Shown: one piece after another, positions 34,429-40,173 of the stretch
Layout: each line of letters begins with the position of its first letter
Numbering within the stretch: the stretch's first letter is position 1
Assembly (NCBI GenBank): GCA_021809805.1
Contig: JAJZKA010000013.1
Location: 1-40,298 of the forward strand
Direction: 5' to 3'
Length of the DNA: 40,298 nt
From: Actinomycetes bacterium
GTDB taxonomy: Bacteria > Actinomycetota > Acidimicrobiia > Acidimicrobiales > Bog-793
Position numbers and translations under genes: made by a program
Notes under the pieces: model-generated
Databases searched by the model: none
Seen by the model: only the letters and a program-made list of their open reading frames with translations
What the model was told of the DNA's origin: nothing

Positions 34429-35691
34429 TCAGGAGGACGACGCCGCGGGATCGGGGTCCTGGGCTTGGCGGGCAAGATGCTCGGGCTCGCGCAGGCGGGT
34501 CGCGGCGAGTGCCGTCGCGGCGAGGCCGAGCACCGCGATGACGGGCCCGGCAAGCGCGATCGGACCGAGCCCGACGACGGCAGAGTCCACGAGTGGCCCA
34601 GCGGTCGTGCCCGCGTCGGAGATCCCTCGCCAGACGGCGAGGAATGAAGGGCGCCCCTCAGAAGGGGTGAGATCGGCGCCGAGGGTCATCACGATGCCAG
34701 CACCCATGCCGTTGCCGAGCGCCAGGACAAAGGACGCCGCGAAGAGCGTGTCGAAGCTCGAGGTCAGCGGAATCAGCAGATGACCCACCGAAAGCAGGAT
34801 GAGGCAGGGCAGCAGGACGGCTCGACGACCGAAGCGATCCGAGATCACCCCGGCCGGGTAGAAGAGCGCGAGGTCGATCACTGACGAGAACGCGAACAGC
34901 ATCGCTGCCTGGCGCGAGTTGAGCCCGAGATGGGCTGCCCACAGCGGCACGATCGCGGTGCGACTTCCCCGCAGCAAGCTGACGGCGAGGACCGCGGTCC
35001 CGGCGACCGCGAGGCCGTTGCGGTGCTTCTTGATGACGTGCCACGGCCGCACTGGCTCGGAGCGCTGGTGGACCGCAGGATCGTTTCGGTCGCGGGCGAG
35101 CACGACCCAGGCGAAGCCGACCACCACGCTCACCAGGTAGATGGCGAACGCCGGTCGCACGTCGTGGCGGCTTGCGATGGCGATGAAGGCGAAGGGCCCG
35201 AGCACGTTCCCGGCGCGCATGATGCCGCCGAACAGGGAGAGCGCGCGCCCCCGGACGAGCACGGGCGCGGCACGGCTGAGGTGCGTGAGGCGAACCAAGC
35301 TCCACAGCGCCCAGCCCATCGCCTGGACCAGCACCGAGACGGCCAGCTCGACGATCGAGCGGGAGGCCAGGCAACCGGCGAGTCCGACAAGAAGCAGAGC
35401 CACGGCCAGCCAGGCGGAGGCCGACTCACCCAGGCGGGCCACGATGCGGCCCGAGGGAAGGTCAAACACCAAGGTGCCGAGGCCGTTCAGGGCCACGAGC
35501 ACCGCGCCGGCGGCCGAGGAGCCATGCACCTCGCGCGCGGCGTAGACGAGGATCGGCAACATCGCACCCTGGCCCGTGGCGATGAGCAGATTGGGCAGGT
35601 AGATCTGCGTCCAGAGCGGCCGGATCGCGCGCGCGACGCCGTGGGCACCGCTCGCCCCTCCTGCGGCGCCCCGGTCCGGGTCGTGCTTCAC
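34429..35691 (-). CDS. MFS transporter
   Basis: About 420 residues from GTG 35691, whose GTGA overlaps the stop of the upstream MFS gene. Twelve membrane helices are visible. The motif-A type loop appears as LPSGRIVARLGESASAWLA in the first half and YPAGVISDRFGRRAVLLP in the second. A GNGMGAGIVMTLGADLTPSEG segment resembles drug-efflux members of the family. The substrate is unknown. It is convergent with the rhamnosidase and is better grouped with the second MFS gene and the MarR regulator as an efflux island than with sugar uptake. Confidence 0.88.
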   Translation of the reverse strand: MKHDPDRGAAGGASGAHGVARAIRPLWTQIYLPNLLIATGQGAMLPILVYAAREVHGSSAAGAVLVALNGLGTLVFDLPSGRIVARLGESASAWLAVALLLVGLAGCLASRSIVELAVSVLVQAMGWALWSLVRLTHLSRAAPVLVRGRALSLFGGIMRAGNVLGPFAFIAIASRHDVRPAFAIYLVSVVVGFAWVVLARDRNDPAVHQRSEPVRPWHVIKKHRNGLAVAGTAVLAVSLLRGSRTAIVPLWAAHLGLNSRQAAMLFAFSSVIDLALFYPAGVISDRFGRRAVLLPCLILLSVGHLLIPLTSSFDTLFAASFVLALGNGMGAGIVMTLGADLTPSEGRPSFLAVWRGISDAGTTAGPLVDSAVVGLGPIALAGPVIAVLGLAATALAATRLREPEHLARQAQDPDPAASSS

Positions 35692-37004
35692 GCGCTCACC
35701 CCGGCGGGGAAGTCCCGCTGGTTTCGCAACGGCGAGGCGAGGAGCCATCCCACCGCGCTCAGCTGACCGATCGCCCCGATCCACAGCGTCGGTCGCAGAC
35801 CGATGGCCGTGCCGAGGGCACCACCCGCGAGCGCCCCGAGCGGCAAGGTGCCCCAGACGACGAAGCGGATGGTGGCATTCATGCGACCGAGCAGTTCAGG
35901 CGGGCACAGGCGCTGGCGGTAGCTGACCTGGGTGATGTTGTAGACGACGATGCCGACCGCGGCGACGCCGTAGCCGAGGCCGAACGCGAGCAGCCCGAAT
36001 CCGGGCTCGGTCAACGGTATGGCCAGGCCGCCGATCGTCGCGCCGGCGCCCAACAGCACCGCGCGGGCCCCGCCCAGCCGCTCGGCGATCCGTGCCGCCA
36101 ACAGCGCCCCCACCAGCCCGCCCACGCCCACGCCGGCGAACAGGAGGCCGACGATCGCCGGGGGAGTGCGCAGCGCGCGGACCAAGAACACGACTTCGAC
36201 GGCGGTCATGATTGCCGAGAAGAAGTTGGCCGTCGCGGTCGTCGCCGTGATCGCCCGCAGGATCTCGTGGTGCGCGACGAAGCGCACGCCCTCGGTGATC
36301 TCTTCCCGCAGGCGCCGGCGGGCGGCTCTGGCGGGAGGCGCCCCCTCCCTTGTGCCGATGGCACCGACCGCGAGCGCCGAGAAGCCGAAGCTGGCCGCGT
36401 CCAGCAGCACGGCGAGCGGAGCGCCGATCGCCTGGATGAGCCCACCGGCAGCGCTCGGTCCGGCGACCTGGGCGAGCTGCGAAGAGCTCGACAGCTTGGC
36501 GTTCGCTTCCACGACCTCGCCGGGCCCCACGAGGCCGGGCACGTAGGACTGATACGCGACGTCGAAGAACACCGTGAGGATGCCGACCGCGAACGCGACC
36601 AGGTACAGCTGGGTCATCGTGAGCGCACCGAGGGCCGCAGTGAGCGGGATCGAACCGAGCGCGGCACCACGGCCAAGGTCGGCGGCGATCATGAGCCGGC
36701 GGCGCGCCATGCGATCCACCCAGGCGCCGGCCGGCAGGCCGATGAGCAAGAAGGCGACCGTGCTCGCGGCGCTCAGCGCGCCGACGGCGAACGTGCTGGC
36801 ATGCAAGGTCCGCACGGCGAGGATCGGGAGCGCCAGCATGCTGATCTGGCTCCCGAGGTCGCTGACGCTCTCGCCGCCCCACAGGCGGAGGAAGTCGCGA
36901 TGCCGCCACAGGCGGCTTGATTGTCGCCTGGTTGAGCTCTCGTGGTCCTGGTCATCAGACGGGCGACGCCTGAACGAGAGGCGCGACCGGAGAGGCATCG
37001 GCAT
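35688..37004 (-). CDS. MFS transporter (EntS/MefA-like)
   Basis: About 438 residues from ATG 37004 (36998 and an upstream start at 37091 are alternatives). Twelve membrane helices; it opens with the WRHRDFLRLWGGESVSDLG segment typical of the EntS/macrolide-efflux group, followed by a motif-A loop GAWVDRMARRRLMI. The VAYQSYVPGLVGPGEVVEAN segment after helix 4 is also characteristic. Members export siderophores or macrolides. It is translationally coupled to the next MFS gene, and divergent from the MarR gene at 37195, which probably represses it. Confidence 0.88.
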   Translation of the reverse strand: MPMPLRSRLSFRRRPSDDQDHESSTRRQSSRLWRHRDFLRLWGGESVSDLGSQISMLALPILAVRTLHASTFAVGALSAASTVAFLLIGLPAGAWVDRMARRRLMIAADLGRGAALGSIPLTAALGALTMTQLYLVAFAVGILTVFFDVAYQSYVPGLVGPGEVVEANAKLSSSSQLAQVAGPSAAGGLIQAIGAPLAVLLDAASFGFSALAVGAIGTREGAPPARAARRRLREEITEGVRFVAHHEILRAITATTATANFFSAIMTAVEVVFLVRALRTPPAIVGLLFAGVGVGGLVGALLAARIAERLGGARAVLLGAGATIGGLAIPLTEPGFGLLAFGLGYGVAAVGIVVYNITQVSYRQRLCPPELLGRMNATIRFVVWGTLPLGALAGGALGTAIGLRPTLWIGAIGQLSAVGWLLASPLRNQRDFPAGVSA

Positions 37005-37163
37005 CGATTTGACCACACCGGCGAGGGACGGCGCCGCTGGGCGATGGATGGACAGGCGGCGGGGGATCCTCCCTGCCCGTCGCAGCCACAACGCTGGGCG
37101 AAACCGACGCCGTGGGCGAGCTCCCGCGGCCCGCGCACGGCGCGTGCCAGCTCCAGAGCATTG

Positions 37164-37194
37164 AGTGCTCTATACAACGCGATATATTCGTGCT
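37164..37194 (+). promoter_or_regulatory. Leaderless promoter of the MarR gene
   Basis: An AT-rich block with TATACA at 37171-37176 and TATATT at 37183-37188. TATATT lies six bases before GTG 37195, so transcription should begin at or next to the start codon. TATA...TATA symmetry makes this a possible MarR operator. ATATATTCGTGCTGTG closely matches the block in front of the DHA2 exporter leader. Confidence 0.5.
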
Positions 37195-37674
37195 GTGACG
37201 AGGGAAGAGCGCACCGATCGCATTGGCGAGGCGCTCTATGGTCTGGTCGTCACCGCGGTTCGCGAGCATGTCCGGGATATCAGCTTGACGGCGGCATCGA
37301 CGCTGTCGACCCTGGCGCAAAGCGGGCCGCGACGCATTACCGATCTCGCTGCGGTCGAGGGCGTGTCCCAGCCCTCGATGACCGTGCTCGTGACGGGACT
37401 CGAGCGCGCCGGACTGGTTGCGCGCCGCGCCGACAGTGCCGATCGCCGGGCGGTGCGCGTGGGCCTCACCGATGAAGGCGAGCGCTACCTGCGCGCGCGT
37501 CGACGCGAGGGCGCCGACGCGTTCGACCGCCTGATCGCGAAGCTGCCACCCGAGGAGGTGGCGGTGCTGCGCGTCGCAGCACCCGCACTGCGGCATCTGC
37601 TCGCCATCGACTCACAGCGCCGCGACGACCAGAACGGACAACGGCGTGGAGGCGGATCCGATGGCGCTCGCTGA
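37195..37674 (+). CDS. MarR-family transcriptional regulator
   Basis: 159 residues from GTG 37195. The winged helix-turn-helix is clear: RRITDLAAVEGVSQPSMTVL, then VTGLERAGLVARRADSADRR with the wing AVRVGLTDEGERYL, and flanking dimerisation helices. MarR proteins repress efflux pumps and lose DNA binding on meeting small phenolic or drug ligands. It is divergent from the two coupled MFS exporters and upstream of a stress protein and a DHA2 exporter, the usual setting for control of all of them. It overlaps the stress-protein gene. Confidence 0.92.
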   Translation: MTREERTDRIGEALYGLVVTAVREHVRDISLTAASTLSTLAQSGPRRITDLAAVEGVSQPSMTVLVTGLERAGLVARRADSADRRAVRVGLTDEGERYLRARRREGADAFDRLIAKLPPEEVAVLRVAAPALRHLLAIDSQRRDDQNGQRRGGGSDGAR

Positions 37675-38164
37675 CCAGGGCGCGTCCAAGCCGCTCGATG
37701 GCGGGGAATCCAACGGGCGCCAGCGACGGACCACGAGCCCGGCCGTCGTCGTCGGCTTCGACGGCTCAGCGAGCTCGCTGGACGCGCTCTTCTGGGCCTG
37801 CGGCGAGGCCCGGCGCCTCGGCGGTCGAGTCGTCGCGGTGTACGTCAGCTCGAATCCCGCGATGGCGGGCCTTGCTGGGGCCGTCGGTGCACCCAGCACG
37901 GACTACATGGTCGAGCAGGCCAACAACGAATGTGCCGAGCGCCTCGCCGCCGAGGCGGCGCGCTGTTGCGGAGACGGACTTCAGGTGCAGTTTGTGCATG
38001 CCCAAGGGACCCCCACTCACGAGCTCCTCGCCGTTGCCAAGGCGGTGCGTGCGGACCTGCTGGTCGTCGGGCGCTCGAAAAAGGCGCGCCATCACCTCGC
38101 GGGGTCGCTTGGGCGGGCGCTCGCCGGAAAGCGTGAAGCGCCGGTCGTCGTCATCGTCCCCTGA
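37646..38164 (+). CDS. Universal stress protein (UspA family)
   Basis: 172 residues from GTG 37646 (or ATG 37661), overlapping the MarR gene by 14-29 bases. A single Usp domain starts near residue 34: AVVVGFDGSASSLDALFWA, a VVAVYVSSNP strand, and the ATP-binding end LLVVGRSKKARHHLAGSLGR followed by APVVVIV. The G-x2-K-x9-G-S-type loop is close to that of ATP-binding Usp proteins. The roughly 30-residue N-terminal extension is disordered-looking. Co-transcription with MarR is likely. Confidence 0.9.
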   Translation: MEADPMALADQGASKPLDGGESNGRQRRTTSPAVVVGFDGSASSLDALFWACGEARRLGGRVVAVYVSSNPAMAGLAGAVGAPSTDYMVEQANNECAERLAAEAARCCGDGLQVQFVHAQGTPTHELLAVAKAVRADLLVVGRSKKARHHLAGSLGRALAGKREAPVVVIVP

Positions 38165-38230
38165 CCTGGCGTCGCGGGCGCATGGGCATCGGACTGTCGG
38201 GATAGCCGCCGACGTCTCGGTGCGCCCGAA

Positions 38231-38260
38231 GATATTTAGCACAGCTATATAGTTCGTGTT
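38231..38260 (+). promoter_or_regulatory. Promoter with inverted repeat upstream of leader peptide and DHA2 exporter
   Basis: ATATTTAGC (38232-38240) and GCTATATAG (38244-38252) form an imperfect inverted repeat (seven of nine pairs) with a three-base spacer, a MarR-like operator shape. TATAGT (38248-38253), a -10 box, lies in the right arm, seven bases before ATG 38261, so the message would start at that ATG. Confidence 0.5.
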
Positions 38261-38302
38261 ATGAGTCAGCCGCATCCCGTCGCCGCCCGCAGGTTGGGGT
38301 AA
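38261..38302 (+). CDS. Leaderless leader peptide, 13 residues
   Basis: ATG AGT ... TAA encodes MSQPHPVAARRLG. Its ATG coincides with the expected transcription start seven bases after TATAGT, so it would be translated from a leaderless message. It ends 59 bases before the DHA2 exporter ATG. Short leaders with Pro/Arg codons ahead of efflux genes often act as ribosome-stalling attenuators; this is inferred from position only. Confidence 0.4.
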   Translation: MSQPHPVAARRLG

Positions 38303-38361
38303 GGGCCGGTGTCCTGGCTGCCAGCCCGGAGAGCTCGCCCCGAACAGGAGGGATCCCGACG

Positions 38362-40173
38362 ATGAGCGCTGACGAGCGACGAGCTTCGGCGCCCCGCCGG
38401 CGACTGCGCGCCCTCGATCATGACGAACGCGACGCTGGTGTCGACAAGGATCGCTACCGGGGAAAGTGGCTGACGCTGTCCAACACGACCCTTGGCGTCC
38501 TTCTCGTGACGGTCAACTCCTCGATCATCTTGATCGCCCTGCCCGACATCTTCCGTGGCGTCCGCCTCAACCCGCTGACCCCTTCGCACAGCAGCCTGTT
38601 CCTCTGGCTGTTGATGGGCTACATGGTTGCGACGGCAGTGCTGGTCGTGAGCTTCGGACGCCTGGGGGACATGTTCGGCCGGGTGAAGATGTACAACCTG
38701 GGCTTCGCCGTCTTCAGCCTCTTCTCCGTGCTGTTGTCGATCGATTGGATGAGCGGCGTCGCCGGCACCATGTGGCTGATCGTGATGCGTATCCTCCAGG
38801 GCATCGGTGGCGCGTTGTTGTTCGCCAACTCCTCGGCGATTCTCACCGACGCCTTTCCCTCGAACCAGCGTGGTCTCGCCCTCGGCGTCAACCAGGTGGC
38901 GGGGATCGCCGGCTCGTTCATCGGCCTCATCCTCGGTGGCCTGCTCGGACCGGTCGACTGGCGGCTCGTGTTCTTGGTCTCGGTGCCGATCGGGATCGCT
39001 GGAACCATCTGGGCTTACTTCAACTTGCACGAAAAGGGCGTGCGCACGCCCTCGCGTATCGACTGGTGGGGGAACCTGACCTTTGGCGTCGGACTGATCG
39101 CCGTCTTGGTCGGGATCACCTACGGCATCCAGCCCTACCACGGCGCGACCATGGGCTGGACGAGCCCGGTCGTGCTCGGCGAGATCGTCGGTGGCGTGGC
39201 CATCCTGGTGGCGTTCGCGTTCATCGAGACCCGCGTGGCGCACCCGATGTTCCGACTCCCGCTGTTCCGCATCCGCGCCTTCACCGCCGGCAACCTCGCC
39301 AGTCTGCTCGCGAGCATCGGTCGCGGCGGGATGATGTTCATCTTGATCATCTGGCTCCAGGGCATCTGGCTGCCGCTGCACGGCTACAGCTTCAGCTCAA
39401 CGCCGCTGTGGGCCGGGATCTACATGGTTCCTCTCACCGTCGGCTTCCTGATCGCCGGGCCGCTCTCGGGCTTCCTTTCCGATCACTTCGGTGCCCGCCC
39501 ATTTGCGACCGGCGGCATGGCCGCGGCCGTCGTGAGTTTCGTGCTCCTCGATTTGTTGCCTGCAGACTTCTCCTACGTGTGGTTCGCGCTCTTGTTGCTG
39601 CTCAACGGCCTCGCCATGGGATTGTTCGCCTCGCCCAACCGCGCCGGGATCATGAACAGCCTGCCGGCAAGCCAACGCGGGGCCGGAGCGGGAATGTCGA
39701 CCACTTTCCAGAATTCCGCGATGGTGCTGTCGATCGGCATCTTCTTCACCTTGATCATCGTGGGCTTGTCGTCACGGTTGCCGGGAGTGCTCGAGCACGG
39801 CCTCGTCACTCAGGGAATCCAGCCCGCTGCGGCACGGCGGGTGTCACACCTGCCTCCGACCGGAGCGCTGTTTGCCGCGTTCTTGGGCTATAACCCGATG
39901 CAGACTCTGCTTGGTCCGGCACTTGACCACCTCAGCTCGGCCAGGGCCGCGTACCTCACCGGAAGGGAGTTCTTTCCCCACCTGATCGCCTCGCCGTTCA
40001 TGGACGGGCTACGCCTCGCGTTCGCCTTCTCGGCCGTGGCTTGCGCAGTGGCCGGCGTGGCATCGTGGCTGCGCGGCGGCAAGTACGTGCACCAAGACGA
40101 GGTCGAGCCAGTGAGCGAGGGACAATCCCCCGAAGTCGCCGCAACCGAGGCGGCGCGCACTTCTCTGGCGTAG
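38362..40173 (+). CDS. DHA2-family drug:H+ antiporter (EmrB/QacA-like, 14 TM)
   Basis: 603 residues from ATG 38362 behind AGGAGG. Fourteen membrane helices can be counted. Family motifs: VTVNSSIILIALPDI in helix 1, motif A GRLGDMFGRVKMY, motif B LIVMRILQGIGGALLFANSS, and the antiporter motif C region GVNQVAGIAGSFIGLILGG. A second motif-A-like loop GFLSDHFGARPFATG lies in the other half. The extracytoplasmic loop between the last two helices is longer than usual (about 90 residues, with GYNPMQTLLGPALDHLSSA). It should export hydrophobic drugs at the cost of protons. Likely regulated by the nearby MarR and a leader peptide. Confidence 0.93.
   Translation: MSADERRASAPRRRLRALDHDERDAGVDKDRYRGKWLTLSNTTLGVLLVTVNSSIILIALPDIFRGVRLNPLTPSHSSLFLWLLMGYMVATAVLVVSFGRLGDMFGRVKMYNLGFAVFSLFSVLLSIDWMSGVAGTMWLIVMRILQGIGGALLFANSSAILTDAFPSNQRGLALGVNQVAGIAGSFIGLILGGLLGPVDWRLVFLVSVPIGIAGTIWAYFNLHEKGVRTPSRIDWWGNLTFGVGLIAVLVGITYGIQPYHGATMGWTSPVVLGEIVGGVAILVAFAFIETRVAHPMFRLPLFRIRAFTAGNLASLLASIGRGGMMFILIIWLQGIWLPLHGYSFSSTPLWAGIYMVPLTVGFLIAGPLSGFLSDHFGARPFATGGMAAAVVSFVLLDLLPADFSYVWFALLLLLNGLAMGLFASPNRAGIMNSLPASQRGAGAGMSTTFQNSAMVLSIGIFFTLIIVGLSSRLPGVLEHGLVTQGIQPAAARRVSHLPPTGALFAAFLGYNPMQTLLGPALDHLSSARAAYLTGREFFPHLIASPFMDGLRLAFAFSAVACAVAGVASWLRGGKYVHQDEVEPVSEGQSPEVAATEAARTSLA

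Follow-up and report, generated by a model that had tools for sequence, protein, structure and literature searches.

The genes from 37195 to 40173 of the window (the whole 40,298-nt stretch of DNA analysed here) very probably form a MarR-repressed efflux module, in which a marR-usp unit and a separately promoted DHA2-like exporter gene share one predicted operator, and a short ORF ahead of the exporter has no demonstrated role. All three genes lie on the plus strand. The first, marR (37195-37674, GTG start at 37195), encodes a 159-aa MarR-family repressor with a MarR winged-helix domain (PF01047, E=3.1e-13; 49.8 bits against a cut-off of 24.6), for which the nearest NCBIfam model is Rv0880, with a score well under that model's cut-off. 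A universal stress protein gene, usp (37661-38164, start approximate; PF00582, E=1.1e-18), overlaps the 3′ end of marR with its 5′ end, so the two are probably co-transcribed. The third gene (38362-40173, ATG at 38362) specifies a 603-aa EmrB-like exporter of the major facilitator superfamily (MFS; PF07690, E=4e-36, 125 bits), which we call DHA2-like because its match to TIGR00711 (E=3e-46) reaches 158 bits against a curated cut-off of 230 bits. Left of marR stand two tandem minus-strand MFS genes (34429-37091), which are also found in the closest relative.

The relatives in the comparison set are Actinomycetes and Acidimicrobiales known from metagenome assemblies, and those with names include Aciditerrimonas; the window thus probably comes from an uncultured acidimicrobial actinobacterium. 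G002, from the same genus, is the closest relative and the only one with the same arrangement that was available for comparison; its exporter and marR are 92% and 82% identical to those of the window, and its gene order, marR-usp-exporter, is the same. In G002 a transposase gene of the IS110 family (L102:14352-15724), broken into two overlapping reading frames, separates usp from the exporter promoter. Beyond this insertion 32 of 38 promoter bases are kept, and we therefore regard the exporter promoter as an independent one.

The predicted operator has the consensus TATAG-N6-CTAT(A/G), an inverted repeat of 16 bp that in most cases has CTA in front, giving CTATATAG. This sequence, followed by N6 and then CTATA or CTATG, recurs in promoters of the same MarR subfamily in other genera and families, with perfect repeats in TATAGATCAGACTATA, TATAGATGTGACTATA and TATAGTTTGCCCTATA. 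It was found within about 160 nt upstream of 18 of the 23 marR genes that belong to the subfamily but come from outside the genus, and upstream of none of six more distant marR genes, the related sequences among these promoters not being independent of one another. In a tree, three of four more distant MarR genes are set apart from the subfamily with full support, and the fourth is long-branched and falls within a fork that is not resolved. In other relatives, marR is predicted to be leaderless, with the right half-site, CTATRNT, itself acting as its -10 box. A literature search gave nothing relevant on CTATATAG with MarR.

A weight matrix trained on 18 subfamily sites, none from the genus of the window, was scanned over 247 kb of the genome, and fixed patterns were searched in the whole 3.57-Mb assembly (G000). 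The best matrix match (19.4 bits) is CTATATAG-TTCGTG-TTATGAG at 38245-38265 on the plus strand; its left arm doubles as the -10 box TATAGT of the exporter promoter, and its right arm (TTATG) contains the ATG of the short ORF. This operator is conserved in G002, and CTATATAG occurs once in the assembly, at this promoter (38245). The second-best match (17.2 bits) is TTGTATAGAGCACTCAATGCT on the minus strand at 37157-37177 (core TATAG-N6-CAATG, 37159-37174), which covers the -35 hexamer of the marR promoter and, with its right arm altered to CAATG, scores below every training site. The next match in the 247 kb has 12.3 bits, and 20 Markov replicates of equal length all stayed below 17 (control maximum, 15.4). 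At the same two places in G002 the scores are 22.2 bits for the exporter and 22.8 bits for marR. A weaker, overlapping reverse-strand operator that shares the CTATATAG core (38232-38252, minus strand) scores 11.4 bits here and 19.9 in G002. The relaxed core pattern TATAGNNNNNNYWATG has two occurrences in the whole assembly, both at this locus, a count that serves as description only, since the pattern, as opposed to the matrix, was relaxed after the sites had been seen. TATA-N8-TATA at 37168, considered as a marR operator, reached only 5.7 bits and was superseded by the minus-strand site. MarR operators are usually 16-20 bp long and overlap the -10 and -35 elements (PMC5401885); here, the predicted 16-bp repeat lies over the -35 hexamer at marR and the -10 box at the exporter. 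That one MarR controls both promoters, as the initial annotation had proposed, is well supported by this subfamily-specific predicted operator at each of them, though not at the bases that it had aligned.

Among 79 DHA2 loci in the genome contigs with enough upstream sequence, the operator is present at all four with an adjacent subfamily marR and at 3 of the 75 without one, including the G002 locus, where marR has been displaced by the insertion; two unrelated DHA2 loci score just above 17 with the matrix. Eight of the 13 copies of CTATATAG in eight genomes fall at these marR/DHA2 promoters, among them the single copies in G002 (the same promoter as in the window) and in G029 (the marR-DHA2 promoter). 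In G042 (L134/L252, G042:C154:46028-46035), CTATATAG lies some 60 nt ahead of a DHA2 gene, and the subfamily marR of that genome is on a different contig, possibly a case of regulation in trans. Many DHA2 relatives without this MarR (L007, L008, L009, L011, L013-L016) have another palindrome, roughly TGACGTNAACGTNA, around the -10 box or start, which suggests a different regulator. Upstream of other DHA2 paralogues (L020, L033, L034) are TTAGCTTGCTAA-like palindromes, which we take to resemble the SlyA consensus.

At marR, the promoter TTGAGT-16 nt-TATATT (37161-37188, plus strand) is the only sigma70-type match within 37100-38400, is retained in G002 and is predicted to be leaderless. Its -10 box (37183-37188) lies 6 nt 5′ of the GTG at 37195, and the exporter-side TATAGT (38248-38253) lies 7 nt 5′ of the ATG at 38261, both within the 6-8 nt taken to mark a leaderless start. 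Judging from this spacing alone, the 5′ ends of both transcripts probably coincide with a start codon or lie very close to it. A TAnnnT motif 5-8 nt 5′ of an in-frame start precedes 9 of 152 genome ORFs of at least 200 aa, as against one in a displaced control; leaderless starts therefore look normal in this genome, and the spacing is not peculiar to the marR/exporter pair.

From these arrangements we infer that a MarR dimer would bind the inverted repeat TATAG-N6-CTAT(A/G) where it overlaps core promoter elements, covering the -35 hexamer at marR and, at the exporter, the -10 box with its left arm and the predicted transcription start with its right. The bound protein would keep RNA polymerase off both promoters, giving autorepression together with repression of the pump, and a ligand that releases MarR would derepress both. 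The exporter transcript would then begin at or close to the start codon of the short ORF, an ATG that arises from the YTATG of the operator half-site, and the exporter would be translated from its own AGGAGG site.

The 13-residue peptide described in the initial annotation is indeed encoded ahead of the exporter, by MSQPHPVAARRLG and a stop codon (38261-38302, plus strand, 13 codons, ATG at 38261), with a 59-nt gap between its stop and the exporter start, but the ORF is probably incidental. Compared with G002, the peptide is identical at 7 of 13 residues, six of the seven changed sense codons are nonsynonymous, and the stop is lost, leaving an ORF of 32 codons; its bases diverge like those of the untranslated gap (25/33 versus 25/34 aligned bases identical). 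A scan of roughly 70 DHA2 loci for a leader found a short ORF at an operator only in G002, and a few other loci have unrelated short ORFs behind TAnnnT. In G019 and G029, which lack a leader, marR overlaps the DHA2 gene and is itself preceded by the same CTATATAGT-N7-ATG; from these and the site arrangements of other relatives, the "leader" ATG of the window belongs to the right arm (TTATG) of the predicted operator. The ORF is thus most likely a by-product of the operator and not a second layer of control.

Two roles for the ORF were weighed against this reading. Translation of the ORF might have no sensing function and yet be coupled to the exporter, with ribosomes that finish near the exporter start assisting initiation there. 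In G002 the end of the ORF does overlap the exporter start as ATGA, and the window has the same frame relation if its TAA is ignored; such an overlap is, however, not unlikely by chance, the window ORF ends 59 nt short, and AGGAGG precedes the exporter ATG in both genomes, so that coupling appears improbable. Less probable still is the attenuation proposed in the initial annotation, by which a leaderless 13-codon leader would be translated and antibiotic-stalled ribosomes would open the exporter ribosome-binding site, on top of MarR control. The ORF does lie at the stated distance from a -10 box, the 59-nt gap behind it holds a good Shine-Dalgarno sequence for the exporter, and the promoter and ATGAGT are retained in G002, but the peptide and its stop have changed beside an exporter that is 92% identical, and the ATG is part of an operator half-site. 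Neither a terminator nor an alternative structure masking the ribosome-binding site was found in the leader region, whose predicted RNA folds differ between the two species and are no better than those of shuffled sequences in either (z-scores of -0.48 and +0.71), and an Rfam search gave no leader match. Conservation of the leader in relatives had been set beforehand as the test of this idea, and the leader is not conserved, on the thin basis of one genome pair.

The same annotation had described two near-identical leaderless promoters, ATATATTCGTGCTGTG (37182-37197, ending with the marR GTG) and ATATAGTTCGTGTTATG (38247-38263, ending with the ATG of the short ORF). The sequences, their -10 boxes and the 6-7 nt spacing are as described, but a one-base gap has to be opened to align them, and the TTCGTG portion of the alignment is lost from both promoters in the only close relative, G002 (TTCGGATCGTG at marR, TTGCTTTTATG at the exporter). 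This unconserved likeness, and the recurrence of leaderless -10 boxes in the genome, would fit promoters that resemble each other only as AT-rich leaderless boxes in a GC-rich genome with no shared operator, which is nevertheless very unlikely, as a matrix built from other genera ranks the two sites first and second and CTATATAG is unique in the assembly. With the shared-operator reading, an uncharacterised MarR subfamily gains an operator and a regulon that can be tested, and a speculative attenuator drops out.

MarR genes of the subfamily are partnered either by a DHA2-like exporter or by another type of MFS pump, one that carries a fused Usp domain at its C-terminus (PF00582; three examples score 68, 47 and 52 bits). 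Such MFS-Usp fusions lie directly downstream of a subfamily marR, mostly with the same operator, at L234, L236-L239, L241-L244, L246 and L247; a literature search on USP-MFS fusions found no relevant description. Unlike these relatives, the window has Usp as a separate gene, and because its product is not closely related to a fused Usp domain (29%, E 0.45), the recurring MarR/MFS/Usp combination is suggestive of a common function but is not proof of it. In Pseudonocardiales (L185, L188), usp is linked to this type of exporter a second time, as a gene divergent from DHA2. We tentatively consider, as a possibility somewhat on the unlikely side, a MarR-MFS-USP module in which MarR proteins recognising TATAG-N6-CTATR control exporters that work with a USP partner, the latter sensing nucleotides or stress and gating or reporting export. 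Universal stress proteins are tied to MFS export by repeated neighbourhood and by gene fusion, which could hint at a role for them at transporters.

Autoregulated MarR repressors with an adjacent efflux pump are known from MprA/EmrR-emrAB and MepR-mepRA. The window resembles these systems in its marR beside an MFS/EmrB-like exporter, its operator over the core promoter and its predicted autorepression, and differs in the separate marR-usp and exporter promoters, the inclusion of usp in the module, the predicted leaderless starts and the TATAG-N6-CTATR operator. The actinobacterial lmrC is governed by ribosome-mediated attenuation with a premature terminator and a mutationally proven short upstream ORF (PMC8546547); it shares with the window a short ORF before a resistance or exporter gene, whereas those two signatures of attenuation were not found here. 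In Corynebacterium glutamicum, the MarR protein CrtR, which is reportedly encoded on a leaderless transcript and has an operator over promoter elements, controls carotenoid genes (PMC5401885); both are actinobacterial MarR proteins with leaderless expression (predicted here) and a promoter-overlapping operator, but CrtR is without such a pump partnership. Streptomyces coelicolor SCO3205 is a MarR with two pseudopalindromic operators upstream of its own gene and few genomic sites (PMC3737563); its consensus, TTnAAnnnTCAA, differs from TATAG-N6-CTATR, and the likeness to the window MarR lies in the pseudopalindromic operator and the small number of genomic sites.
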